Source: an uncultured Paracoccaceae bacterium (lineage in GTDB: Bacteria; Pseudomonadota; Alphaproteobacteria; Rhodobacterales; Rhodobacteraceae). From it: a stretch of DNA of 64,000 bases. The notes under the pieces are model-generated. The model made no database searches. It saw nothing but the letters and a program-made list of their open reading frames with translations, and was not told the origin of the DNA. This document shows, in pieces, positions 23,149 through 36,320 of this stretch (positions are counted from its first letter, which is position 1; every line of letters starts with the position of its first letter). Made by a program: the position numbers and the translations under genes. The stretch is taken from NCBI GenBank assembly GCA_947499635.1, contig CANMPD010000003.1:186001-250000 (forward strand). The letters are read 5' to 3'.

Positions 23149-24042
23149 CTACAGCGCAGCACCTACAAAATCGTACTGCTTGGCCTGCATTTTTATCTCT
23201 TTTGGCCATGTTAGTATAAGAATGGCACAGCCGTTAATATTTGCCTCTTGCAAACACTCGGGCAGGTCTCGCAATGCGCAACTGAGGTGCTGTTCGCTGG
23301 GCTTAGCCACATCTGCGGCAATTTGAATTTGAACCCCATTCGGAACTCCGCGCATAATAAGACCGTCGCGAATACGCGTGGCTTGGCGAACGGACATATA
23401 AAAGACAGTCGTTGTCCCTGGACGGGCATGTAGGGCGCTTTCGGGCAGTGGATCGCCTTCGCGGCACGTGCCTGTGGTCAAAATGAGCGTATCTGCCACG
23501 CCGCGCTCTGTCAGTGAAACCTGCCGGTGCGCTGCTGCGGCACAGGCTGCGGTGACACCGGGGACGATCTCGACCTCAATCCCTGCAGCGCGCGCTGCGA
23601 TCAACTCTTCGGTGACACGTCCAAAAATACTCGGGTCGCCCGATTTGAGTCTCACGACCCGCTGACCTTTGCGGGCCTCTTCAATGATTTTGGCGTCAAT
23701 GCGATCTTGGGGCCAAGCGTGGGCGCCGACCTCTTTGCCGACATAGATTTTATGCGCGTTCCGAGAGGATAATGCCACGACTTCCGGTTCTACCAGCCGA
23801 TCATACAAGACCACGTCGGCGGCTGCGATCATGCGCATTGCACGCAGTGTCAACAAATCCGCTGCGCCGGGGCCAACGCCAACCAATGCGATATGTGCCT
23901 GTTTGCCTCCGATTTGACCCGTATCAGGCATGGCTCTACGCGCGGCTTCTCTGCGCTGAACATGTGACAGAGATGCGCCAAGACGGCGGCTTATACGTTC
24001 AAGCACTCCCCAAGCGGGCAGAGAGGGAAGGGGGCGGATCAT
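23149..24042 (-). CDS. cobA: Uroporphyrinogen-III C-methyltransferase of the nitrate operon
   Basis: Second SUMT of the window, making precorrin-2 for the siroheme of NirB. The 297 residues include an N-terminal extension of about 45 residues rich in arginine before the core starts at HIALVGVGPGAADLLTLRA. Further motifs: YDRLV, VGKEVG, RLKSGDPSIFGR and PGVTAACAAA. The start overlaps the nasA stop by 4 bases, which supports the long form, though MPDTGQIGGK is a possible internal start. It is last in the operon. No dehydrogenase/ferrochelatase module is fused to it. Confidence 0.92.
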   Translation of the reverse strand: MIRPLPSLPAWGVLERISRRLGASLSHVQRREAARRAMPDTGQIGGKQAHIALVGVGPGAADLLTLRAMRMIAAADVVLYDRLVEPEVVALSSRNAHKIYVGKEVGAHAWPQDRIDAKIIEEARKGQRVVRLKSGDPSIFGRVTEELIAARAAGIEVEIVPGVTAACAAAAHRQVSLTERGVADTLILTTGTCREGDPLPESALHARPGTTTVFYMSVRQATRIRDGLIMRGVPNGVQIQIAADVAKPSEQHLSCALRDLPECLQEANINGCAILILTWPKEIKMQAKQYDFVGAAL

Positions 24043-26720
24043 TCGGCGGCGTCCTTCAGTTGAATTTTGGCCAATAGATCACCGATTTCGGGACGGCAAG
24101 ATCCGCAATTTGTTCCTGCCTGTAGGGCTTCGCCAATGGCCTCAACAGTCATCAAGCCTTGGGTCTCAACCGCGTTAAGAATGGTATTCACCCCAACCGA
24201 GAAACAGGAACACAGGATGGGGCCAGGGTCAGGTCGATCCTGTGGCGCGCGGCCAGATAACACCGTGTCCTGTGCCTGATCACCGGGGAGGGTTGCCAGA
24301 TAATCTCGCATCACCGCAACCGGCTCGCGCGCGACAAACAGCGCGGCCAAGAGCACTCCGTTGTCATACAGTGCAATTCGGGCGCTGCCACGTCCCTTAT
24401 CTTCAAGGCGCTGAACACAAGCATCAGGTAGATCGAACAGCCTGCGAGCTTCGGCTTCCCAGTCTTGGGGGGATTGCGAACTTGCGAGCTCTAACCGCCA
24501 GCCCCGCTGGGTGCGGGCCCGCGCCCAGTAATCCGCTTGAGGATGGACAGCATTACAGCTGATGGCAAACCCATACCATTGTGCTTCAAACCGCTGTGCT
24601 GCGACGACGCTGGCTTTGCTTTCAGGTTGGCCTGAAACGGGATCGACGACCGGTGCCACGAGAGTATCCACACAGGCAGAGGGGGCGGTTTCACCTGTCC
24701 AATGGATTGGTGTGAACATATCCCCGGGGCGTACGTCGCAGGTGATGCGGGCCCGTAAAATCGACTGTCCTTGTGGGCTGCGTAGGCGTACCAAATCTGC
24801 CGCTTGTATCCCTAATTCCTTGGCGTCTTGCGGATGGATATCAACAAAAGGCTCTGCCAAATGGCTCGACAGACGTGGGGACAGGCCAGTGCGGGTCATT
24901 GTATGCCACTGGTCGCGTAGTCGGCCCGTGTTCAGATAATACGGATATTTTCTGGCTTGTTTCGCTGCAGGGGCGCGGTGACGGAGAGGGAGCATTTTAG
25001 CTTTGCCATTGATGTGATAAAACTGTCCGTCGGCAAAGAAGCGTCCGTTGGATGTCTGAGGTGGGTTTGTTTGGGGATGTGGCCAGCGCAAGGGGGCGAT
25101 ACCGTCGTACTGTGCATCGGAAAGAGTTTTGAGGCCGCTTATGTCAAAGTCACGCCCAAAATCTTTGGCGATGCCTGACAGAGCGGCATATTCGCGAAAA
25201 ATCTCCGCTTCGGTGCTGTAGTTAAAACCATCTTTCCAGCCCATACGGCAGGCAACATCTGCCAGAATAACCCAATCAGGTCGAGCCTGACCAGGCACTG
25301 GCAAAAAGGCACGCTGGCGGCTGATTGTGCGATCCGAATTTGTCACGGTACCAGATTTCTCGCCCCAGCCGGTTGCCGGTAAGACAACATCAGCCAGACG
25401 TGCGGTATCTGTTTGTGCAGTGATGTCGCTGACTACCGTGAAATCGCATCGTTTGATTGCTTCACGCACGCGATCTGCATCTGGCATCGATACGGCGGGG
25501 TTTGTGTGAATGATCCAAAGAGCTTTGATTTTTCCTTGGTAAACGGCCTCAAACATATCAACGGCCTTGAGACCTTGGTGTTGCGCCATTGTAGGGGCAG
25601 CCCAATGGGCCTGTACGGCATCGCGGTGATCGGCGTTCTCTATATCCAAATGACAAGCCAGCATATTCGCCAAACCGCCAACTTCGCGTCCGCCCATGGC
25701 ATTGGGTTGTCCGGTGACCGAGAATGGTCCAGAGCCCGGTAAACCAATCCGGCCGGTGGCCAGATGGCAATTTAAGATGGCATTGACCTTGTCCGCGCCA
25801 GCAGAGGATTGGTTTACGCCTTGGCTATAAATCGTCACCACACGTTCGGTGCCAATCCACATATCGCAGAACTGCCTTATCAGGTCGTCATCGAGTCCCG
25901 TGGGCGCAAGCGTATCCGCACGTGCGGCCTCCAAAGCGGCCTCTAATCCTTCGACATGGGGCAGAAAATCCTGGTTCAGCATGCCACGGGCATCGATCTC
26001 GCTTAGCAGGTGATTGAACAGCGCCACATCTGATCCAATCGCCAGCGGCAAATGTAGATCAGCAGACTCGACGCTGGCCGTGCGGCGCGGGTCGATCACG
26101 ATGATCTTGGTGCCACGGGTTTGACGCGCCGCCAGCAAGCGTTGATGTAATACAGGATGGCACCAAGCAAGGTTCGATCCTACCAAGACCACCAGATCTG
26201 CGGCCTCGATATCCTCATAGGTGCCGGGTACCGTATCGGTCCCAAAGGCGCGTTTGTGACCCGCCACAGACGAGGCCATACAAAGGCGCGAATTCGTGTC
26301 GATATTTGCGCTGCCAATATAGCCTTTCATCAACTTGTTGGCGACATAGTAGTCCTCGGTCAGCAGCTGTCCCGAGACATAAAAGGCCACGCTATCAGGC
26401 CCGTGTTCCGCAATGGTTTTGGAGAATTTCTCAGCAACCAAATCCAGCGCACCGTCCCAGTTAACGGTCTGACCGTTGACCTGCGGCGCGAGCAGACGCT
26501 CTGACAGGCCAACGGTTTCACCCAAAGCGGATCCTTTTGAACACAATCGTCCAAAATTTGCCGGGTGCTCTGGGTCGCCTTTGATTGTGACAGATCCATC
26601 CTGTTGAGGTTGCGCTAGAATGCCACAGCCCACTCCACAATAGGCGCAGGTGGTGCGAGTCCAGCTGGTCAGATCATCGCTTTCACGACCAATTGCATTG
26701 CGGATCACGGTGGTGTTCAT
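24039..26720 (-). CDS. nasA: Assimilatory nitrate reductase catalytic subunit
   Basis: Reduces nitrate to nitrite in the cytoplasm, using a Mo-bis-MGD centre. 893 residues. The N-terminal [4Fe-4S] ligands are in CAYCGVGCGIL and GRLCSKGSAL. The molybdopterin core contains VSGQLLTEDYYVANKL, NTNSRLCMASS-like DTNSRLCMASS, and GMNQSSAG-like GVNQSSAGAD. The molybdopterin-binding C-terminal domain follows at about 560-690. The last 60 residues are a BFD-type [2Fe-2S] domain (CSCFSVGVNTI, then TNCGSCRPEI), which suits a NasC/NasA enzyme fed by a flavoprotein. No separate NasB-like reductase gene is present, so NirB may supply electrons. It overlaps nirD and the methyltransferase by 4 bases each. Confidence 0.95.
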   Translation of the reverse strand: MNTTVIRNAIGRESDDLTSWTRTTCAYCGVGCGILAQPQQDGSVTIKGDPEHPANFGRLCSKGSALGETVGLSERLLAPQVNGQTVNWDGALDLVAEKFSKTIAEHGPDSVAFYVSGQLLTEDYYVANKLMKGYIGSANIDTNSRLCMASSVAGHKRAFGTDTVPGTYEDIEAADLVVLVGSNLAWCHPVLHQRLLAARQTRGTKIIVIDPRRTASVESADLHLPLAIGSDVALFNHLLSEIDARGMLNQDFLPHVEGLEAALEAARADTLAPTGLDDDLIRQFCDMWIGTERVVTIYSQGVNQSSAGADKVNAILNCHLATGRIGLPGSGPFSVTGQPNAMGGREVGGLANMLACHLDIENADHRDAVQAHWAAPTMAQHQGLKAVDMFEAVYQGKIKALWIIHTNPAVSMPDADRVREAIKRCDFTVVSDITAQTDTARLADVVLPATGWGEKSGTVTNSDRTISRQRAFLPVPGQARPDWVILADVACRMGWKDGFNYSTEAEIFREYAALSGIAKDFGRDFDISGLKTLSDAQYDGIAPLRWPHPQTNPPQTSNGRFFADGQFYHINGKAKMLPLRHRAPAAKQARKYPYYLNTGRLRDQWHTMTRTGLSPRLSSHLAEPFVDIHPQDAKELGIQAADLVRLRSPQGQSILRARITCDVRPGDMFTPIHWTGETAPSACVDTLVAPVVDPVSGQPESKASVVAAQRFEAQWYGFAISCNAVHPQADYWARARTQRGWRLELASSQSPQDWEAEARRLFDLPDACVQRLEDKGRGSARIALYDNGVLLAALFVAREPVAVMRDYLATLPGDQAQDTVLSGRAPQDRPDPGPILCSCFSVGVNTILNAVETQGLMTVEAIGEALQAGTNCGSCRPEIGDLLAKIQLKDAAE

Positions 26721-27049
26721 GCGGCGCTCCGTGCCCCAAGTTCTGCAGGGTTCATCAGGATGCGCCCGTCTTTTACGCGTACAGAAAAGGTATCAATTTG
26801 CCCGTCGTCGGCCCCTTGAGCTTCGCCACTTTCCAATGAGAAAACCCAGTTATGCAGAGGGCAGGTGACGGACTTTCCATGAACGATACCTTCGGAGAGG
26901 GGGCCGCCCTTGTGGGGGCAGCGATCCGAGGTTGCAAAAACTTCGGCCTCATCCGTACGAAACAGGGCGATACAGCCAAGTGGTGTTTTGACGATACGTG
27001 CGCCACGCAGCGGGATGTCGTCGATTGCGCCTACATCAATCCAGCTCAT
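26717..27049 (-). CDS. nirD: Nitrite reductase small subunit (Rieske type)
   Basis: A 110-residue partner of NirB with a Rieske-like fold. The cluster-ligand pattern is intact, CPHKGGPLSEG and CPLHNWVF, so it should hold a [2Fe-2S] cluster; some NirD proteins have lost these residues. It overlaps nirB at its start and nasA at its end by 4 bases each, so the three are translated as a unit. Confidence 0.92.
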   Translation of the reverse strand: MSWIDVGAIDDIPLRGARIVKTPLGCIALFRTDEAEVFATSDRCPHKGGPLSEGIVHGKSVTCPLHNWVFSLESGEAQGADDGQIDTFSVRVKDGRILMNPAELGARSAA

Positions 27050-29484
27050 TCTGCGGCCTCCGTCGTCAAATCTGCAAGAGGTTGATAGATATCGGACTTC
27101 TCTTTGGCATGCTCAGCCCATGGATCTTTGCGATAGATGGTTTGTGACAGCTCAAACCGGTCCGCCAGCGCCTTGCGTTGTTCAGCGTCGTCAACGACCT
27201 GCTCCTTGAGCCATTCAAGGCCAACTTTGTTGATCCATTTGTGAACACGGTCGAGGTACTTGGCGTTCTCGCGATAGATCTGTGTGATGGCAGAGATCAT
27301 CTCCATCGCTTGATCTTCGGTTTCGACCTTGCACAGAACCACGGTGCCGATGATTTCCATACCAGCAGCACCACCCACATGGATTTCATAACCGCTGTCG
27401 ACGCAGATCACGCCAATGTCTTTACAGGTCGCTTCGGCGCAATTACGTGGACAGCCTGAAACAGCGAGTTTCAGTTTATGTGGTGTCCAAGAGCCCCACA
27501 GATGTTTTTCCAGTTTGATACCCAGACCGGTAGAGTCCTGCGTGCCAAAGCGGCAATGGTCCGTGCCAACACAGGTTTTTACGGTGCGCAGGCCCTTGGA
27601 ATAGGCGTGCCCCGAGACCAGACCCGCTTGGTTGAGATCATACCACATGGACGGCAGATCCGCGCCCTTGACGCCCAGCAAATCGATACGCTGGCCGCCG
27701 GTCACTTTTACCGTGGGCACGTTGTATTTGTCCGCAGCATCGGCAATGGCCCGCAGTTCGTCCGGCGTGGTGATCCCGCCCCACATCCGTGGCACAACTG
27801 AATAAGTGCCGTCTTTCTGGATGTTGGCGTGTTTGCGTTCGTTGACAAAACGTGACTGGGGATCATCTTGGTATTCAATCGGCCAATCTGCCAGCAGATA
27901 ATAGTTGATTGCCGGACGGCAGACGTGACAGCCGTTGACTGTTTTCCAGCCCAGTTCCTGCCAAACGGCGGCTTGGCTTTTGAGTTCCTTAGCCTTGATA
28001 AGACGGCGTACGTCTTCGTGGGTCAATTCACAGCAGCCACATACAGGTTGGGCCTGTGGCATCTGAAAGCTGTCACCAAGTGTGACTTGCAGCACCTGCT
28101 CGACCAGACCGGTACATGTGCCACAAGAGGCAGAGGCCTTGGTGCTTGCGCGAACGGCAGCCAGATCACCTGCGCCGTCATTGATTGCCTCTACAATCGT
28201 TCCTTTGCAAATGCCGTTGCAGCCACAAATTTCCGCATCAAGCGGCAATGCTGCAACGGCTGACAACGGGTCCACAGTGGACCCTCCCTGATACGAGGGG
28301 CCAAAGATCAGCGTTTCGCGCATGTCGGAAATTTCGGTGCCATCTTTGATCATCTGGAAGAACCAGCTGCCGTCTGCGGTATCGCCGTACATTACGGCAC
28401 CGATGATTTTATCGCCTTCGATGACCAGACGTTTGTAAACGCCGCGTGCGGGATCGCGAAAGACGATGTCTTCACGACCTGGGCCTTCGGCGAAATCACC
28501 GGCGCTGAACAGATCACATCCGGTGACTTTGAGTTTTGTTGAAAGGGTTTTTTGGGTGAACTTCGCTTCTTCCCCCAACAAGGTTTTGGCAACGACTTTT
28601 GCTTGGTCATAAAGCGGAGCAACAAGGCCAAAGACTGCCCCGTCGTGTTCTACACATTCACCAACACCTAAGATGTTTTCGTCCGAGGTAAGCATTTGAT
28701 CATCAACATGGATACCGCGGCCTGTCGCCAAACCTGCCTCGGTTGCCAAGGCAATATTGGGGCGAATGCCGACAGCCATAACAAGCAGGTCACAGGGCAG
28801 TTCTGTCCCATCATCCAACATCAATGCGCTAACTTTTCCGTCAGTGCCTTTGATCTCTTTGGAATTGGCGCCGCACAAAACGGTGATGCCTTTTTCCTCA
28901 AGCGATTTTTTCAGCAGATACCCTGCGGCCTCGTCCAGTTGACGTTCCATGAGGTGGCCCATGATATGCACAACCGTCACATCAACGCCATGCGCAGCCA
29001 TGCCAGCCGCCGCTTCAAGACCCAGTAGACCGCCGCCGATAACAACAACTTTGTCGCCTTTGCCTTTGGCCATCATCAGTTGCGTGTCTTCAAGATCGCG
29101 ATAGGCGATCACACCGTCGAGATCATGACCGGGTAGGGGGATGATGAACGGATTAGACCCTGTGCCAAAGACCAGTTTATCATAGGGTAAAACATCGCCA
29201 TTGTCTGCTGTCACAGTCTTGACCACACGGTCAATCGCGACGATTTTTTCTCCGAAACGGCAGGTGACATTGTTGTCAGCATACCATTGCGAGTCGTGAA
29301 TTATGATGTCTTCATAGGTTTTGTCGCCCGCCAGAACTGGCGACAACATGATGCGGTCATAGTTGCCACGTGGCTCTGCATTGAACAACGTGACGTCATA
29401 GGCATCAGGGGCTGCGGCAAATAACTGCTCTAACGCCCGGCCCGAAGCCATGCCGGCCCCAATGACAATAAGGTTCTGTTTCAT
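27046..29484 (-). CDS. nirB: NADH-dependent assimilatory nitrite reductase, large subunit
   Basis: Reduces nitrite to ammonium in the cytoplasm. 812 residues in the usual order: FAD/NAD(P)H-binding oxidoreductase (IVIGAGMASGRALEQL, then VVIGGGLLGLEAA) to about 400; a BFD [2Fe-2S] domain (CGCNGICKG and SCGTCTG); a second BFD-like stretch (CGCCELTHEDV and CHVCRP); and the siroheme-[4Fe-4S] half with TCVGTDHCRFG and GCPRNCAEATCKD as ligands. GGAG before the ATG lies inside the end of the globin gene. Its siroheme depends on the methyltransferase at the end of the operon. Confidence 0.96.
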   Translation of the reverse strand: MKQNLIVIGAGMASGRALEQLFAAAPDAYDVTLFNAEPRGNYDRIMLSPVLAGDKTYEDIIIHDSQWYADNNVTCRFGEKIVAIDRVVKTVTADNGDVLPYDKLVFGTGSNPFIIPLPGHDLDGVIAYRDLEDTQLMMAKGKGDKVVVIGGGLLGLEAAAGMAAHGVDVTVVHIMGHLMERQLDEAAGYLLKKSLEEKGITVLCGANSKEIKGTDGKVSALMLDDGTELPCDLLVMAVGIRPNIALATEAGLATGRGIHVDDQMLTSDENILGVGECVEHDGAVFGLVAPLYDQAKVVAKTLLGEEAKFTQKTLSTKLKVTGCDLFSAGDFAEGPGREDIVFRDPARGVYKRLVIEGDKIIGAVMYGDTADGSWFFQMIKDGTEISDMRETLIFGPSYQGGSTVDPLSAVAALPLDAEICGCNGICKGTIVEAINDGAGDLAAVRASTKASASCGTCTGLVEQVLQVTLGDSFQMPQAQPVCGCCELTHEDVRRLIKAKELKSQAAVWQELGWKTVNGCHVCRPAINYYLLADWPIEYQDDPQSRFVNERKHANIQKDGTYSVVPRMWGGITTPDELRAIADAADKYNVPTVKVTGGQRIDLLGVKGADLPSMWYDLNQAGLVSGHAYSKGLRTVKTCVGTDHCRFGTQDSTGLGIKLEKHLWGSWTPHKLKLAVSGCPRNCAEATCKDIGVICVDSGYEIHVGGAAGMEIIGTVVLCKVETEDQAMEMISAITQIYRENAKYLDRVHKWINKVGLEWLKEQVVDDAEQRKALADRFELSQTIYRKDPWAEHAKEKSDIYQPLADLTTEAAE

Positions 29485-29487
29485 AGT

Positions 29488-29907
29488 TTACTCCGTCGCT
29501 GCCGGATAGGCAGTCTCGATCATGAGGTTTGACAGCGTGGTATAAGCGGTGATCCAAGCGGCTTCGGTTTCAGGATCAAAAGCTTCACCCAATCCTTTAT
29601 CGAGGGTGAACAGCAGCGCAGCCCCAACTTTTGCATAGTCTTCAGCTTTGACGCCGTATTCGACATGTTTGATGGCCATAGCCTGTGCTGCGGGTACAAC
29701 CTTTTCGAGGTTGCGCAAGCCGTTGACGATCATGCCGAGGGTGGACATGAGCTTTTTGCCTTGCTCAACCATATCGCCCTTAAAATAAGGACGAACCTCA
29801 GGGGCGATTTCAAACAGGCGATCATAAAAGATCATTCCGGCCTGGTCAGAAATTGGCACAACTTTGGCAAAGCTTTCCTGGACCAGTGTGATCTGGGTGT
29901 CTTGCAT
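29488..29907 (-). CDS. Single-domain globin in the nitrate assimilation operon
   Basis: A 139-residue globin of the flavohemoglobin-type (Vitreoscilla-like) family without a reductase domain. QESFAKVVP starts helix A, IFYDRLFEIAPEVRPYF covers helix B to CD with Y28 at B10, and H81 in IKHVEYGV is the proximal haem ligand. It lies 5 bases after the ATPase gene and 3 before nirB. The likely role is removal of nitric oxide formed as a side product of nitrite reduction, or oxygen or NO sensing. The reductase that would recycle it is not in the operon; NirB is a conceivable partner, which is inference. Confidence 0.88.
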   Translation of the reverse strand: MQDTQITLVQESFAKVVPISDQAGMIFYDRLFEIAPEVRPYFKGDMVEQGKKLMSTLGMIVNGLRNLEKVVPAAQAMAIKHVEYGVKAEDYAKVGAALLFTLDKGLGEAFDPETEAAWITAYTTLSNLMIETAYPAATE

Positions 29908-29912
29908 GTTTG

Positions 29913-31601
29913 TTACTCCGCTGCGATATCAGCTTTGGCTTCAGATGTTTTGGGCTTAGGTTTGGCCCCGTGTTCATACTCTTCAAGGAAATCAAGGACT
30001 TCTTGGCGGTAGGCATAGTAATCTGGATGCTCAAGAAGCGCCTTACGCGTGCGAGGGCGCGGCAGGTCGACATTGGTGATTTTGCCGATTGTTGCTTGTG
30101 GCCCATTGGTCATCATGACAACGCGATCGGCCAAAAGGATTGCCTCGTCTACGTCGTGTGTCACACAGATCGCGGTGACCTTGGTCCGGGACCAAACCTC
30201 CATCAACACCTCTTGCAACTCCCAACGAGTGAGGCTGTCGAGCATGCCAAAAGGTTCATCCAACAACAACAGTTTTGGTGACAAGGCAAACGCGCGCGCG
30301 ATGCCGACGCGTTGTTGCATCCCGTTGGACATAGAGCTTGCCGGTTTGTCCATCGCATCCGCAAGGCCCACGCGTTCAAGGTAGTATTCAACAACATCCT
30401 GGCGTTCTGCTTGGCTGGCCTTGGGATAGACCTTGTCTACGCCAATCGCGCAGTTTTCACGGGCAGACAACCACGGGAATAGGTTGGGCGATTGGAACAC
30501 AACAGCGCGCTCTGGATCCGCGCCTTCGACGTGTTTTTTGTCCAGTTTGATCGCCCCTTTGGAGATTGGGTTCAAACCAGCTGCCATGGTCAATACGGTT
30601 GACTTCCCACACCCCGAGTGCCCGATGAGTGAGATAAATTCACCTTTGTTGATCTTGAGGTTGAAATCTTCGACGACAGTCAACGGACCCTTGGGTGTTG
30701 GATAGACCTTGTGCAGTTGTGAAAAGTCCAAGAACCGTTCTTCGGTTAAGGTTTTTCCTGCATCTGCAAGCGCCGTTGGTACACCGTGAATAGGTGTTAC
30801 ATTTGGCAAGGTTTTTACACCTTCGATTTTGGCTTGGATGCCAACATCCATCAGATAGGTGGTCACATCTGCACGCAGACGTTTAAAGCCTTCGTCGTTG
30901 TTCATTGCAGTGCGATCCCGTGGACGGGGAATAGTGACCGAGAATTCTTCGCCCAATGTTCCGTCTGGGTTTAGCGCAATGATGCGGTCGGCCAGTAAAA
31001 TCGCCTCGTCGACGTCATTGGTGATCAAGACGCAGGTCTTTTTATCTGCATCCCAAATCGCCTCGATCTCATCCGCGAGGTTTGCACGTGTTAAGGCATC
31101 CAGTGCCGACAGAGGTTCGTCGAGTAACAAAACCTCGGGGTCCATTGCCAATGCACGCGCCACATTGACCCGTTGGCGCATTCCGCCAGACAGCTCGGCG
31201 GGGCGGCGGTGGATGGCGTGGCTTAGGCCCACCATATTAATGTAATGCGCGACCTTGGCGTCTTTGTCTGCTTTGGACATGCCCGGGAAAACAGTGTCGA
31301 TGGCAAGAGCGACGTTGCCGCCAACGGTCAACCACGGCATTAGAGAGTAGCTTTGGAAAATCACGCCACGTTCTGGGCCCGGGCTGGTGATTTCGTCACC
31401 TCTGTAGGTGACGCTGCCTTTGGTCGGGGTCTCAAGACCTGCCATTAGGTTGATCAAGGTCGTTTTACCCGACCCTGAAAACCCAAGAAGAACAAGGAAC
31501 TCTCCCTCTTGGACGCTAAGGTTAATGCCGTTCAGAACATCGGTGCGGGCGGTGCCGTGACCAAAGCTTTTGGAGACATTTTTAAACTCAAGAACGCTCA
31601 T
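29913..31601 (-). CDS. nrtC: Nitrate ABC transporter, tandem ATP-binding protein
   Basis: A 562-residue protein with two ABC ATPase domains in one chain, so it serves as both NrtC- and NrtD-type subunits. First half: Walker A GFSGSGKT (40-47), signature LSGGM (137-141), Walker B LLLDE, but the H-loop histidine is replaced (N195 in ITNDVDEA). Second half: GHSGCGKST (327-335), degenerate signature MSNGM (424-428) and a normal H-loop (H482). Between them is a linker of about 80 residues. The NrtA-like fused domain of cyanobacterial NrtC is absent. It is 6 bases downstream of the permease gene. Confidence 0.93.
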   Translation of the reverse strand: MSVLEFKNVSKSFGHGTARTDVLNGINLSVQEGEFLVLLGFSGSGKTTLINLMAGLETPTKGSVTYRGDEITSPGPERGVIFQSYSLMPWLTVGGNVALAIDTVFPGMSKADKDAKVAHYINMVGLSHAIHRRPAELSGGMRQRVNVARALAMDPEVLLLDEPLSALDALTRANLADEIEAIWDADKKTCVLITNDVDEAILLADRIIALNPDGTLGEEFSVTIPRPRDRTAMNNDEGFKRLRADVTTYLMDVGIQAKIEGVKTLPNVTPIHGVPTALADAGKTLTEERFLDFSQLHKVYPTPKGPLTVVEDFNLKINKGEFISLIGHSGCGKSTVLTMAAGLNPISKGAIKLDKKHVEGADPERAVVFQSPNLFPWLSARENCAIGVDKVYPKASQAERQDVVEYYLERVGLADAMDKPASSMSNGMQQRVGIARAFALSPKLLLLDEPFGMLDSLTRWELQEVLMEVWSRTKVTAICVTHDVDEAILLADRVVMMTNGPQATIGKITNVDLPRPRTRKALLEHPDYYAYRQEVLDFLEEYEHGAKPKPKTSEAKADIAAE

Positions 31602-31607
31602 CTCAGA

Positions 31608-32681
31608 TCACCGGTTATTGCTAAAGGTAAACAGCGATTGCAGGGCGAACATGACACGGTCCAACAGAAAGCCGATGATGCCGATGGTCAAAACTGCAAC
31701 GATGATTTTTGCGAGCGACTGGGACGATCCGTTTTGGAATTCATCCCAAACAAACTTGCCCAAACCGGGGTTCTGCGCCAGCATTTCGGCGGCGATCAGA
31801 ACCATCCAGCCGACGCCCAATGACAGACGTAAACCGGTAAAGATCAGCGGTAAAGACGATGGCAAAACCAGTTTGGTGATTTTGGTATATGTGTTCATTT
31901 TCAGAACTTTAGATACATTCACCAAGTCCTTGTCGATGGATGCCACACCCAAGGCTGTGTTGATCAAGGTTGGCCATAGGGAACAGAGGGTCACGGTGAT
32001 CGCGGAGACCAAGAAGGATTTTGAAAACAGCCCGTCATTGGTCGCATAAAGCGCCGAGACAACCATGGTTACAATCGGCAACCATGCCAGCGGTGACACG
32101 GGCTTAAAGATCTGCACCAAAGGGTTAATCGCAGCGTTGGCAATAGGGGATAGACCGGCCATGATGCCTAGCGGGATGGCAATGACCGCCGCAATCAAAA
32201 AGCCAAAGAAGACGGTTTTGATCGACGTCCAGATCTGCGTGTAATACGAGGGCGAACCGGTATAGGGGATATCTTTTACTTTTTCCGGCTGGCCACGGTC
32301 GATGAAACGCTGGTTGCGCGCCTCGACTTTTTCGTAATGCGTTGCCTCTTTTAGGGCTTTGGCTTGTGCATCTTTGTGTAGATTGACGGTTTCAGTCCAG
32401 ACGGCCGCCGGACCAGGGATCGCCCCCAGTGAGGTTTGCACTTTGGGGGCCAAAATGCCCCAAAGCACCAAAAAGGCGAGGATCGCGATTAATGGAACGA
32501 CCAATAGGCGCCAGATTTCTTTGATTTGCGCCTTGGGATTATCACCTGCAACCACCTTTAAAACAGGCGTGATCCAGGCAAGGCCAAACACCTGAAACCA
32601 GGCGTCCAGTTTGTTAATCCGGGTAAAGAGCCGCTCCCGGCGGGCCTCGGGGCTCAGCGTATCAGGGTCAACGGTCGTCAT
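31608..32681 (-). CDS. nrtB: Nitrate ABC transporter permease
   Basis: A 357-residue permease. An amphipathic N-terminal part of about 40 residues is followed by a first membrane segment (about 70-90), a soluble stretch of about 70 residues, then the BPD_transp_1 domain with five or six segments from about 170. The EAA-type loop that contacts the ATPase reads near ALGVASIDKDLVNVSKVL. The long insert between segment one and the core is typical of alphaproteobacterial nitrate permeases. The region between it and nrtA (32682-32848) contains a hairpin. Confidence 0.92.
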   Translation of the reverse strand: MTTVDPDTLSPEARRERLFTRINKLDAWFQVFGLAWITPVLKVVAGDNPKAQIKEIWRLLVVPLIAILAFLVLWGILAPKVQTSLGAIPGPAAVWTETVNLHKDAQAKALKEATHYEKVEARNQRFIDRGQPEKVKDIPYTGSPSYYTQIWTSIKTVFFGFLIAAVIAIPLGIMAGLSPIANAAINPLVQIFKPVSPLAWLPIVTMVVSALYATNDGLFSKSFLVSAITVTLCSLWPTLINTALGVASIDKDLVNVSKVLKMNTYTKITKLVLPSSLPLIFTGLRLSLGVGWMVLIAAEMLAQNPGLGKFVWDEFQNGSSQSLAKIIVAVLTIGIIGFLLDRVMFALQSLFTFSNNR

Positions 32682-32848: not shown

Positions 32849-34213
32849 TTAACCTTGTACTTCGGTGCCAACGACAGTCTGGTCGCCCTTCAGGCCGATT
32901 GGAAGGCTGTCAATATAGGCGTTGGGTGCTTTGCCATCGAACGGAATGCCGTCAATGATATCCGCTGCAGGCGTCGGTGCCTTGTAGCCATCGCTGTCCC
33001 AAGGAAAGTCTTCTGCGCTTGCCAGACCTTCGTCTACCAGCAGTTTGGCTGCTTCGAGATAGATTTCAGGTTTGTAAACGGACTTTGCGACCTCATCGTA
33101 CCAGCTATCAGGCTTGGCATCAGCAACCTGACCCCAACGGCGCATCTGAGTGAGATACCAAACCGCGTCTGAATAAAATGGGTAAGTCGCATTATAGCGG
33201 AAGAAGACGTTGAAATCAGGAACGTCACGCTTGTCGCCTTTTTCATATTCAAAGGTACCGGTCATCGATGCAGCAATCACATCATAATCGGCGCCCACGT
33301 AATCTGGACGAGACAAGATTTCCACGGCTTCTTCGCGGTTGGCATTGTTATTTTCGTCCAGCCACATTGCTGCGCGGATCAGCGCTTTGACGACAGCTTT
33401 GGTTGTGTTTGGGTTTTCTTCGGCAAACTCTGCTGTGATCCCAAAGACTTTTTCGGGGTTGTTCTTCCACAGCTCATAGTCTGTGATCACAGGAACACCG
33501 ATGCCTTTGAAAACAGCTTGCTGGTTCCACGGCTCACCTACGCTATAGCCAGAGATCGTGCCTGCCTCGAGGGTTGCCGGCATCTGAGGCGGAGGGGTGA
33601 CAGACAAAAAGGCTTCTGCACCGATTTGACCGGTTACGTTTTCTGGTGAGTAGTAACCAGGCTGGATACCACCCGCTGCCAACCAGTAACGCAGTTCATA
33701 GTTGTGCGTGGAGACTGGGAACACCATGCCCATGTTAAAGGGCTTACCCTTAGAATTGAAATCTTCGATCACGGGCTTTAGGTGAGACGCCGAGATTGGG
33801 TGAGATATTTTGCCATCCGCATCGGTCGGCAGGTTCGGCTTCATCATGTCCCAAACTTCGTTGGACAGTGTGATGCCGTTGCCGTTTAGATCCATCGAGA
33901 AAGGCGTGATGATATGCGCTTCGGTTCCATATCCGATTGTCGCGGCCAAAGGTTGGCCTGCTAGCATATGCGCGCCGTCCAATGTTCCGTCGATTACGCC
34001 GTCCAAAAGAACCTTCCAATTGGCTTGCGCTTCGAGTGTGACAAACAAACCTTCATCATCAAAAAAGCCTTGCTCATAGGCAATCGCAAGCGGCGCCATG
34101 TCGGTCAACTTGATGAAACCAAAGGTTAATACGTCTTTTTCCAGTTCCAGCTCAGCAAAGGCCGGGCTGCACAGTGCGGTGGTCGTTGCCATTGCGGCAA
34201 TCAGTTTTTTCAT
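32849..34213 (-). CDS. nrtA: Nitrate-binding periplasmic protein
   Basis: A 454-residue binding protein of the NrtA/CmpA family. The signal peptide is [20 protein letters not shown]; it is a standard type without a lipobox, so the protein is periplasmic and soluble rather than a lipoprotein as in cyanobacteria. Family landmarks: [45 protein letters not shown] and [27 protein letters not shown] precedes the ATG. It is the first structural gene after the NasT-controlled leader. Specificity for nitrate rather than bicarbonate is inferred from the operon. Confidence 0.93.
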
Positions 34214-34271
34214 CGGGTCAGTCCCCCTGTTGGTTGACGCTTGATGACGATGAGAAGGCAGCCATCAAACG

Positions 34272-34334
34272 AAAAAAAGGTCGCTCAACCAAAATCCGCC
34301 GAGAGGAGATGGCGAATAAAGGTTGAGCGACCTT
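34272..34334 (-). terminator. Leader terminator upstream of nrtA
   Basis: On the minus strand, AAGGTCGCTCAACC (34334 down to 34321) pairs perfectly with GGTTGAGCGACCTT (34290 down to 34277), followed by a run of seven T (34278-34272). The loop of about 30 bases holds a further short stem, TTCGCC with GGCGGA. It sits about 60 bases before the nrtA start and well after nasS, so it acts on the nrtA leader. It is mutually exclusive with the hairpin at 34323-34340. Confidence 0.85.
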
Positions 34335-34365
34335 GCTCAAATATATGGTTCCCAAATCACTGGGA
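34323..34365 (-). promoter_or_regulatory. ANTAR-type two-hairpin RNA target of NasT in the nrtA leader
   Basis: Read as RNA on the minus strand, UUGAGC-AAGGUC-GCUCAA (34340 to 34323) is a perfect 6-pair stem with a six-base loop having A at position 1 and G at position 4, as known for ANTAR protein targets. Nine bases upstream lies a second stem, UCCCA/UGGGA (34365 to 34350), with loop GUGAUU; opening its last A-U pair gives AGUGAU, again A1 and G4. The downstream hairpin uses bases of the terminator's 5' arm (34321-34334), so bound NasT would prevent termination. Confidence 0.7.
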
Positions 34366-34482
34366 GAATTCTTTGGCTAGCGTCCTTGCTTGCCTTAACT
34401 CAAGACTGACAGCCACAGCGTTTTTCACAATATCTAAACGTAATGTTAACCTTAAATTGGGGTAAATTTTACGGTTGGGTCC

Positions 34483-34497
34483 ATTAAGTCGCTTAAT
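34483..34497. promoter_or_regulatory. Palindrome in the nrtA promoter region
   Basis: ATTAAGTCGCTTAAT is a perfect palindrome with 6-base arms and a 3-base centre, 12 bases after the nasS stop and upstream of the nrtA leader hairpins. The place where nrtA transcription must begin (about 34370-34509) makes it a candidate operator. It could also be a weak nasS terminator read on the plus-strand side. I see no clear sigma-54 promoter here. Confidence 0.35.
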
Positions 34498-34509
34498 TTT
34501 TCATCACGA

Positions 34510-35739
34510 CTATTTGTTTGGATCAAATATTTTGCCATCAAAAAATCGATTTACACCGTTTTGCTGGGGTGAACCTGCCGTTTCTGGGCTATCAGACGGC
34601 GTATTTGCGTCGTTATTACGAGGCGATGTCAGAATTTGAGAATCGTTTTGGTGAGATGTGCCATGCCCCTCGATACGGCAGTTCTGTGTCGGGATGCCGG
34701 TATCCAACCCTTTTAATGCTGCGCGATACAGATCGCCGCGAAACACTTGTGTGGCAGTTGCCATTGCGGCGTGGCGATCTAGACCCATTCGGGAGGCCAA
34801 TTGATGGGCAATCCACTGTGCCTGACTGTCCCAAGGAAAGGTGGCTTGGTCGCGGTGAAAACGCAAAAAGCCCGGCACTGTACGTTGTAATCCTTGTGGT
34901 GTGACCGTCAGTTTGCCGGATAAGGCGCGATCAATCATCTCTGGTGGCATGTTTAAATAGGGCTCTCGGGACAAAAGTTCCGCAGCCAACACACGGCTGT
35001 TCGGATCAGAGAGCCAACGCCCCGCACGCCAAACCGCACGGATCAAGCGGCCGGAGAGCGCAACTTCGCTTGCGGCCCAATCGCTGCGGACAGCCAAAAC
35101 TTTTTCTGGGGCAAATGACCAAATTGCAGAACTGGGTAGCAAGAGTGCGCCCAAAGCCTCTTCGACGACAAATGTGCCCCAAGGTTCGCCGACACAAAAT
35201 GCATCCACATCACCGGCCCGCATTGCATCTGCCATCAAAGGCGGCGGCACTGTGCGGATGTCGATACTTTGGGGGGCGGGGAAGCCAAGCGCGCTTAACC
35301 AGTAATACAACAGCTCCGCATGCATAGAAAAGGGAAACGGCACGGCGATGCGCAGGCGTTGCGGCGCAGCTTTGATCAGCGCATGGCCGGCGGCATAGGC
35401 GTCGTTAAATCCAAAATCATGTCCAATCTCGCGCAGCCGTTGCGCCATCTCGGCGCTGACGCCGATTACGTTGCCATTGACGGATAGGACAGAAATCGCA
35501 CTGAGCGCGGTGCCAGTGTTGCCCAACCCCAACGCCGAAGCCACGGGCACAGGCGCCAGCATATGCGCGGCATCTACACGGCCAAAGGCCAACATATCCC
35601 GCAGGGATGACCACGATGGTGCCCGCCGTAGATCCAGATCCAAGCCTTCTTCGGCAGCAAAGCCCATTTCCTGTGCCACAATCAGCGGAGCAGCGTCCAC
35701 CAGTGGGATATAGCCCACCGCCAGTGTCGCGCCTCTCAT
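34510..35739 (-). CDS. nasS: Nitrate sensor NasS (cytoplasmic NrtA homologue)
   Basis: A 409-residue homologue of nitrate-binding proteins with no signal peptide (MRGATLAVGYIPLVDAAPL), so it stays in the cytoplasm. This is the NasS type, which holds NasT inactive and releases it on binding nitrate or nitrite. Landmarks parallel to NrtA: GRVDAAHMLAPVPVA, HAELLYYWLSALG and FCVGEPWGTFV. The last 70 residues are polar, low in conservation and unlike the rest. It overlaps the nasT stop by 4 bases. Confidence 0.9.
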   Translation of the reverse strand: MRGATLAVGYIPLVDAAPLIVAQEMGFAAEEGLDLDLRRAPSWSSLRDMLAFGRVDAAHMLAPVPVASALGLGNTGTALSAISVLSVNGNVIGVSAEMAQRLREIGHDFGFNDAYAAGHALIKAAPQRLRIAVPFPFSMHAELLYYWLSALGFPAPQSIDIRTVPPPLMADAMRAGDVDAFCVGEPWGTFVVEEALGALLLPSSAIWSFAPEKVLAVRSDWAASEVALSGRLIRAVWRAGRWLSDPNSRVLAAELLSREPYLNMPPEMIDRALSGKLTVTPQGLQRTVPGFLRFHRDQATFPWDSQAQWIAHQLASRMGLDRHAAMATATQVFRGDLYRAALKGLDTGIPTQNCRIEGHGTSHQNDSQILTSPRNNDANTPSDSPETAGSPQQNGVNRFFDGKIFDPNK

Positions 35740-36320
35740 GACATCAGCTCTGCTGCGGTGACCAGCGATTCCGCCACATCGACCAACCGTTGGTTTTTGT
35801 TCATCGCGGTCTTACGCATAAGGGAATAGGCCTGCTCTTCGCCGATGCCACGTGCCTTCATCAGCAGGCCCTTGGCGCGGTCAATTACTTTGCGTTCCTC
35901 AAGAGCACGTTTGGTCTCTGCCAGCTCAGTGCGCATGCGTTGAAACATTGCAAAGCGTGCAATGGCTGCATCTAAAATGGGTTTCATGCGGGTGGGTTGC
36001 ATCCCATCAACCACATAGGCTGATACTCCGGCCTCAATCGCTGCGGTGGACATACCTTCGTCGGAGCGGTCCACAAACATCGCAACCGGGCGCTCTAGCG
36101 GGCCAGAGGCCAGTGTCAGCTCTTCCAACATGTCTCGGGACGGGCTTTCAAGGTCAATCAATACGACATCCGGATTGAGCGCCTGAATTTGCCGGGCAAG
36201 CCGATTGGCATCAGCAATGACATGTATTTCAAATTCCCCCGCGCTGCGCAGGCTCTCGTGCACTTGTTCGGCACGGTCTGGATCAGGTTCGACCAGAATG
36301 ATGGACAGTGGGCGTGACAT
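35736..36320 (-). CDS. nasT: Transcription antiterminator NasT (receiver plus ANTAR domain)
   Basis: A 194-residue RNA-binding antiterminator. Residues 1-120 are a receiver-like domain (ILVEPD, then VVLIDLESPSRDM). The C-terminal ANTAR domain spans about 130-190, with RKVIDRAKGLLMKARGIGEEQAYSLMRKTAM as its signature region. In known systems, NasT bound by NasS is inactive, and nitrate frees it to bind a two-hairpin leader. Such a leader lies just before nrtA in this window. nasT is the first gene of the locus; 36321-36513 should hold its promoter. Confidence 0.93.
   Translation of the reverse strand: MSRPLSIILVEPDPDRAEQVHESLRSAGEFEIHVIADANRLARQIQALNPDVVLIDLESPSRDMLEELTLASGPLERPVAMFVDRSDEGMSTAAIEAGVSAYVVDGMQPTRMKPILDAAIARFAMFQRMRTELAETKRALEERKVIDRAKGLLMKARGIGEEQAYSLMRKTAMNKNQRLVDVAESLVTAAELMS

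Follow-up and report, generated by a model that had tools for sequence, protein, structure and literature searches.

A three-hairpin array in the leader of a nitrate operon from an uncultured Paracoccaceae bacterium, a probable NasT-controlled transcription attenuator

Introduction

In the openly available text of the papers cited here, the RNA targets of ANTAR proteins follow a dual hexaloop rule. The target consists of two hairpins with six-base loops carrying A at position 1 and G at position 4 (A1/G4), and the second hairpin overlaps a terminator (PMC3369931). The linker between the two hairpins of the EutV targets is 5-12 nt, and induction suffers when it is 3 or 14 nt long (PMC3369931), while a survey of actinobacteria accepted 2-25 nt between the hexaloop hairpins (PMC8164766). 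As to how ANTAR proteins use several hairpins, the 2022 paper on the structure of EutV argues against simultaneous binding and favours a stepwise transfer between the hexaloops (PMC8934654). In nitrate assimilation, NasT is freed from NasS by nitrate and binds the leader (PMC3795266), and binding of Paracoccus denitrificans NasT to the nasA leader was observed by gel shift (PMC3795266).

A leader of this kind is described here from a stretch of 64,000 nucleotides, called the window below, of an uncultured Paracoccaceae bacterium. It is compared with the leaders of relatives and with the systems already known.

Materials and Methods

Eighty NrtA loci were fetched. One of them (L083, Hirschia) lacks a leader of this type and was set aside; the other 79 together with the window make up the 80 leaders compared. 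The P2 hairpins of L039, L049, L058 and L062 were recovered after the first P2 pattern, and P0 of L015 was re-registered by hand. Four leaders of odd spacing (L033, L050, L054 and L063) were excluded from alignment A1 and from the P1 counts. Near-identical leaders were removed, alignment A1 keeping 64 and alignment A2 keeping 68 sequences. Genomes were searched with R1, a covariance model that covers all three hairpins.

Results and Discussion

The features of the locus are presented in Table 1. The leader is read from the minus strand and separates nasS from nrtA. The two frames farthest downstream were named from their sequences, and we take them to be an assimilatory nitrate reductase and a siroheme gene of the uroporphyrinogen methyltransferase type. 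An ANTAR regulator adjoins an NrtA-like nitrate sensor beside the genes of nitrate assimilation, and the Pfam matches and gene order agree with the earlier note on this DNA, which had placed NasT, with its ANTAR domain, and NasS directly upstream of the leader. Rfam gave no family match in the whole window at the gathering threshold and no family of ANTAR type in the leader at E-values up to 10, where one mir-87 match scored far below the gathering score.

Table 1. Coordinates of the genes and leader elements in the window
Feature	Position	Strand	Description and basis
nasT	35736..36320	-	194 aa; receiver-like domain and ANTAR; Pfam ANTAR 5.7e-22, Response_reg 2.2e-07; PDB sequence matches
nasS	34510..35739	-	409 aa; nitrate-sensor type, Pfam NMT1_2; overlaps the end of nasT
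Candidate promoter	34403..34430	-	-35-like TTGTGA (34430-34425), 16-nt spacer, -10-like CAGTCT (34408-34403)
Hairpin P0	34375..34394	-	GGCaAGC-AAGGAC-GCUaGCC; A1/G4 hexaloop, loop 34387-34382; folding and comparison
Hairpin P1 (middle)	34350..34365	-	UCCCA-GUGAUU-UGGGA; sequence, folding and comparison with relatives
Hairpin P2 (putative antiterminator)	34323..34340	-	UUGAGC (34340-34335), A1/G4 hexaloop AAGGUC (34334-34329), GCUCAA (34328-34323); sequence and folding
Intrinsic terminator	34272..34334	-	stem of 14 pairs (34334-34321 and 34290-34277) around an inner hairpin, then U7 (34278-34272)
nrtA	32849..34213	-	nitrate ABC transporter binding protein, Pfam NMT1_2; first gene past the leader
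nrtB	31608..32681	-	permease; Pfam
nrtC/D-type protein	29913..31601	-	562 aa, two ABC ATPase stretches; Pfam
Globin	29488..29907	-	Pfam
nirB-type nitrite reductase	27046..29484	-	Pfam
Assimilatory nitrate reductase frame (presumed)	24039..26720	-	read from sequence
Siroheme (uroporphyrinogen methyltransferase-type) gene frame (presumed)	23149..24042	-	read from sequence

The sequence of NasT matches the PDB entries 6wsh (8.4e-18), 1s8n and 4akk, which we take to be EutV, Rv1626 and NasR, respectively. Relative to 6wsh, the receiver-like domain keeps the Asp, but the second acidic residue is replaced by Pro and the conserved Lys by Asp; the roles of these residues are assumed by us. A receiver without the conserved Lys would be consistent with release of NasT from NasS rather than with its phosphorylation. 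The EutV residues in contact with RNA are Arg142, Lys143, Lys147, Tyr164 and Met172 (PMC8934654). In the 6wsh alignment, from which a numbering shift of two residues was read and assumed, the corresponding residues of NasT are Arg, Lys, Arg, Tyr and Met, with one Lys to Arg substitution. A second ANTAR protein, a frame of 207 aa, is found in the same genome (locus L002, G000:C1:418212-418367) beside an AmiC-like binding protein and two ABC permeases, and by its sequence this locus would be a system of the AmiC-AmiR type.

The arms of the terminator are AAGGUCGCUCAACC and GGUUGAGCGACCUU, and 8 of the 14 pairs are G-C. The fold of the 136 nt of 34265-34400 has an energy of -53.2 kcal/mol (z -5.29, with none of 200 shuffles as low), and five terminator-like sites are found on the two strands of 34100-34700, compared with 0.7 in shuffles. 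The loop and 3' arm of P2 are at the same time the 5' arm of the terminator, the stem of which begins at position 1 of the P2 loop. Sequence and folding therefore confirm what the earlier note had claimed, a 14-pair terminator with seven T overlapped by a hairpin with an A1/G4 loop. In folds of the growing transcript P2 is seen at the shorter lengths, and it is replaced by the terminator once the 3' arm of the latter has been made.

This overlap, taken as a stem of at least 8 pairs starting within the P2 loop and followed by a U-run, is kept in 76 of the 80 leaders, while 1.5 would be expected with shuffled downstream DNA. Of these 76 leaders, 65 have the start of the stem precisely at position 1 of the loop; the overlap so defined was not found in L027, L036, L038 and L046. 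The terminator did not steer the choice of P2, because 79 of the 80 leaders offered one candidate only (P2 of L063 was set by hand). A1 and G4 occur together in the P2 loop of 76/80 leaders, G4 being required by the P2 pattern itself, and in the covariation analysis P2 varies little among the relatives. The presence of the overlap in 76 leaders gives this region the layout of an ANTAR attenuator.

The hairpin P0 is located 9 nt further upstream than P1, outside the region of 34272-34365 covered by the earlier note, and was missed there. Its stem in the window has one A-A mismatch. A1 and G4 are found together in 76/80 leaders, where the loop letters helped to choose P0, and in 68/80 when P0 was chosen by its stem alone. 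By position, A1 is present in 76, A2 in 79 and G4 in all 80 leaders, and positions 3, 5 and 6 vary. It was observed that where A1 is lost from P0 or P2 it is replaced by G, in both hairpins of L058 and L062 and in only one of the two in L072, L075, L039 and L049.

Among 68 non-redundant sequences, compared with a shuffle control that does not keep the relatedness of the sequences, both partners had changed in six of the seven P0 pairs (as many in 4 of 500 shuffles), cells with both partners changed numbered 140 versus 45.3, paired cells amounted to 85.1% versus 58.7%, and the covariation score was 0.674 versus 0.227, the last three values being reached by 0 of 500 shuffles. Slid partners scored no higher than 0.204. 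The further pair types of P0 were not above the shuffles (22 versus 21.6, a number reached in 269 of 500). RNAalifold, unaided, recovers both P0 and P2. The earlier note had proposed a search for covariation in the leaders of Rhodobacterales, and covariation is indeed present, strong in P0 and slight in P1; P2 varies little. P0 thus combines the strictest A1/G4 loop upstream of P2 with the strongest covariation among the three hairpins.

The register of P1 that is kept in relatives corresponds in the window to CCC-AGUGAUUU-GGG, which gives A1 and G4 in a loop of 8 nt. The earlier note was right that this hairpin lies 9 nt from P2 and that it fits the A1/G4 pattern only with its A-U pair open. 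The motif CCC-N6..8-GGG is found between P0 and P2 in 59 of 76 leaders, with 0.98 expected, and is absent from the other 17. The loop of these 59 has 7 nt in 40, 8 nt in 15 and 6 nt in 4 leaders; its letters include G4 in 52, A1 in 36, and A or G at position 1 together with G4 in 51. A broader count of the 76 leaders called gave A1 in 42, G4 in 52 and both in 33, mixed with an alternative hairpin. The covariation of P1 is slight (8, 2, 0 and 1 cells with both partners changed), and P1 is absent from the RNAalifold prediction. The alternative hairpin pairs the 3' arm of P1 with the 5' arm of P2 and may be a third state of the leader.

The two gaps between neighbouring hairpins in the window are 9 nt each, inside the range of 5-12 nt for EutV, while the direct gap of P0 to P2 is outside it. 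Among the 59 leaders with P1, the P0-P1 gap has a median of 10 nt (range 1-16; 5-12 nt in 44) and the P1-P2 gap a median of 5 nt (range 1-11; 5-12 nt in 43), but both gaps are 4-13 nt in only 39. The loops of P0 and P2 are 46-55 nt apart in 75/80 leaders (search range 25-85), with a gap of 29-34 nt between the hairpins in 65/80. P0 (AAGGAC) and P2 (AAGGUC) correspond to the published pair of hairpins with at least 3 stem pairs and A1/G4 hexaloops, and the overlap of the second with an intrinsic terminator also agrees with the published form in 76/80 leaders. However, a short linker exists only between neighbouring hairpins, one of which has a relaxed loop. The gap of P0 to P2 breaks the short-linker rule, so that this leader is a variant and not a plain member of the dual-hexaloop group.

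A variant target had been suspected in the earlier note, correctly, as there are three hairpins and not two. Its proposal of a NasT-responsive antiterminator stands as to the class of switch, in view of the conserved overlap and of nasT and nasS upstream, but the anatomy has to be revised, the third hairpin having been overlooked. The strict A1/G4 partner of P2 is P0, and P1, which had been taken for that partner, stands in the middle and has a relaxed loop. In one leader upstream of nrtA (L033), the loops of P0 and P2 are 76 nt apart compared with the usual distance of about 49, and two hairpins can be seen by eye between them; this is possibly a four-hairpin array.

In the genome of the window R1 gave one match (E 1.2e-9); the others had E-values of at least 2.2 and were treated as chance. 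Matches were found in 70 of 198 genomes of the family (E <=0.01), the 198 being taken regardless of their content of nasT. All 30 best-match loci fetched in the family lie between nasS and nrtA. Among the matches listed, five genomes have two each, and eight of these matches were examined. The second arrays of L214 (2527-2593), L215 (2494-2561), L216 (4373-4439) and L218 (6438-6500) are second three-hairpin leaders, with the three hairpins seen by eye, in front of a gene read as a siroheme gene. This reading holds from the start of the frame in L216, and no match to nasT or nasS was found within the 6.4-7.0 kb fetched for L214, L215 and L216. The matches in L217 and L219 and the first one in L218 precede nrtA. 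The context of L220 is not clear, and the nrtA-side matches of genomes G358 and G375 are L129 and L136. In the window the siroheme gene sits downstream within the nitrate cluster. From these gene orders, NasT may control the cofactor of nitrite reductase in a separate unit in the four relatives.

Beyond this group, 95 neighbourhoods of nasT and nasS, 94 of them from other families, were scanned for hairpins, and 53 loci were found to combine P2 and a terminator with one or more A1/G4 hairpins upstream. Two or more upstream hairpins are present in 16 of the 53 (1.9 expected for the outer part), one within 12 nt, as in the published form, in 22, and one at a distance of at least 20 nt in 13. R1 was run over 93 of the neighbourhoods (without L212 and L213) together with the records of P. 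denitrificans and P. pantotrophus and gave 15 matches with E <=0.1, missing both Paracoccus leaders. By hand comparison of coordinates, 12 of these are in register with leaders from the hairpin scan, one (L191) overlaps a leader out of register, and L167 and L194 are elsewhere. Because R1 gives few matches there, the three-hairpin array beyond the group of the window rests on the hairpin scans.

The nasA leader of P. denitrificans HAMBI_2443, which is not the strain of the published work, contains exactly both primers given for the gel shift (PMC3795266). It has the hexaloops AACGGC at -155, AAUGAU at -130 and GACGAU at -107, a further hairpin with A or G at position 1 and G4 at -241, and no clear U-run after the array. 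Three hexaloops with A or G at position 1 and G4 at like spacing occurred in 2 of 1000 shuffles of this leader and in 0 of 1000 for P. pantotrophus. Eight leaders from Paracoccus and Rhodobacter were scanned; L225, where nasTS is present without a following nasA, was left out. Three hairpins are found in L221-L224. In L229, P0 and P1 come from the scan, and a 3-pair hairpin, GGC-AAUGAC-GCC, that overlaps the terminator was seen by eye. In L228 the scan gave P1, and P0 and P2 were recognised by eye. Only two hexaloops are present in L226 and L227. The leaders of Paracoccus yeei and P. alcaliphilus contain two hexaloops only, and those of Paracoccus marcusii and Rhodobacter sp. CZR27 have, as judged by eye, an A1/G4 hexaloop at the place expected for P1. 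The available text on P. denitrificans describes mutants of the leader hairpins HI (-137) and HII (-91) (PMC5424462); an assignment of HI and HII to P0 and P2 by their distance of 46 bp was dropped, as the sequence does not settle the match. Judging from the sequences compared, three hairpins are not obligatory in NasT-type leaders, because two-hairpin forms occur in P. yeei, in P. alcaliphilus and in the 22 loci of published form among the 53.

RNA from the candidate promoter would start near 34396, at the foot of P0. The promoter-like hexamers of the window are weak, and a scan of the leader region with the sigma-70 consensus found none. A pair of -10-like and -35-like hexamers scoring at least 8/12 is present in 51/80 leaders, whereas shuffles give about 21. 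Of these 51 leaders, 32 have the end of the -10-like hexamer 7-9 nt ahead of P0, although the comparison is partly circular as the hexamers were chosen by eye from the same sequences. This suggests that the RNA would start at P0, in which case P0 would form before any other structure of the RNA. For the earlier note, a start of nrtA transcription downstream of 34323 would have spoken against the switch; the promoter-like elements are upstream of the hairpins in the relatives, though weak in the window.

Boxes of the form TGC-N11-GCA, which we take to resemble NtrC sites, occur with all 6 letters in 20/80 leaders, compared with 3.6 in shuffles. In 13 of these 20 the box falls near -110 or near -120, two positions separated by about one helical turn; these boxes lie about 109-122 nt before P0 (L014, L019, L021, L022, L026, L027, L029, L030, L031, L036, L038, L048 and L079). 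Such a box was rejected for the leader of the window, where the best candidate has only 4/6 letters and the pattern occurs at chance level over the whole window. NasT-type leaders of other alphaproteobacterial families (L086, L088, L092, L112, L113 and L117) have, by eye, elements like TGGCAC-N5-TTGC shortly before the hairpins. These are presumably of the sigma-54 type and differ from what is found in the group of the window.

Taken together, we propose, with a probability of roughly 0.8, that this leader acts as a transcription attenuator under the control of NasT, placed ahead of the nitrate operon, with the three-hairpin array as its recognition element. The basis of this proposal is the array itself with its sequence, structure, covariation and spacing, the overlap with the terminator and the gene context. 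From these we infer that NasT binds this leader and uses all three hairpins, as well as the role of P1 and the order of events. Without nitrate or nitrite, NasS would hold NasT, the terminator (34334-34277) would form, and transcription would stop about 60 nt before nrtA. With nitrate, the released NasT would stabilise P2 through the ANTAR domain and the polymerase would read on, since the loop and 3' arm of P2 belong to the terminator as well. NasT would load on P0, the first structure transcribed, and then pass via P1 to P2. The target of NasT in Rhodobacterales may be a relay of three stations, in which the protein must be handed from P0 to P1 and from P1 to P2; we put this forward tentatively, at somewhat below even odds. 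If true, the relay would be a natural test of the model of successive ANTAR binding, one step beyond the leader targets that we found described.

It is important to compare this proposal with simpler ones. P0 and P2, as the two strict hexaloops, could form a dual hexaloop by themselves, with P1 merely a folded spacer joining them. The varying length and sequence of the P1 loop and its little covariation would agree with such a role, but a spacer has no need of G4, which is kept in 52/59 leaders, nor of the A1/G4 hexaloop at the place of P1 in P. marcusii and Rhodobacter sp. CZR27. A longer linker also impairs antitermination by EutV, although a folded spacer is not covered in the accessible text of those papers (PMC3369931, PMC8934654). 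We regard this arrangement as rather doubtful. An ordinary dual-hairpin target made of P1 and P2, with P0 serving separately, for example as a stabiliser of the 5' end, appears unlikely. The P1-P2 gap of 9 nt is within the EutV range, and this arrangement finds parallels in the 22 of 53 NasT-type loci with one upstream A1/G4 hairpin at no more than 12 nt and in the two hairpins of P. yeei and P. alcaliphilus. However, it is P0 that has the strictest upstream loop, the strongest covariation and a fairly fixed distance to P2, whereas the P1 loop is mostly 7 nt long with A1 in only 36/59; a stabiliser, moreover, would presumably not need an A1/G4 loop.

The strong terminator located between nasTS and the structural genes could also simply end the nasTS transcript, the hairpin in its 5' arm being there by chance and antitermination playing no part. 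This is very improbable in view of the overlap kept in 76/80 leaders compared with 1.5 expected, the covariation of P0, and the arrays of L214-L216, which precede a siroheme-type gene and where the fetched 6.4-7.0 kb contain no match to nasT or nasS. The three-hairpin attenuator remains our preferred reading.

Comparison with known systems

The kind of switch is already known, but with three hairpins in a row this leader departs from the published two-hairpin rule. The conserved array, with strict outer loops, a relaxed middle one and fairly fixed spacing, offers natural variants with two, three and possibly four hairpins for testing transfer. It also changes the two-hairpin picture of nitrate assimilation, both for a large group of marine bacteria and, on the evidence of the same scan, for P. 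denitrificans, whose leader mutants are already in print (PMC5424462). In the open-access literature, with most subscription journals, supplements and figures outside this scope, no description of a three-hairpin ANTAR leader was found.

As far as the available text of the papers goes, this leader resembles those of eut, nasF and amiE, the targets of EutV, NasR and AmiR (PMC3369931, PMC8934654), in its A1/G4 hexaloops, the ANTAR regulator, the short gaps between neighbours, the sharing of the loop and 3' arm of the last hairpin with the terminator, and the conserved pair closing the loop. It differs from them by its three hairpins and the middle loop of 6-8 nt. The strict hexaloop hairpins are mostly 29-34 nt apart here, farther than in eut (5-12 nt) or in the actinobacterial survey (2-25 nt; PMC8164766). 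The nasABGHC leader of P. denitrificans is similar in having NasS-NasT directly upstream and in its location, with nasS on one side and the first structural gene on the other; it is bound by NasT, and its hairpin HI is needed for expression (PMC3795266, PMC5424462). Unlike the window, the first gene there is nasA and not nrtA, and HAMBI_2443 has no clear U-run. The accessible text of those papers describes a series of hairpins with HI and HII and not three ANTAR hexaloops (PMC3795266, PMC5424462). The EutX RNA, a small RNA that is said to sequester EutV and not a leader attenuator, contains a dual hexaloop and a further G4 hexaloop in one RNA (PMC8934654) and is the nearest precedent that we found for the array presented here.
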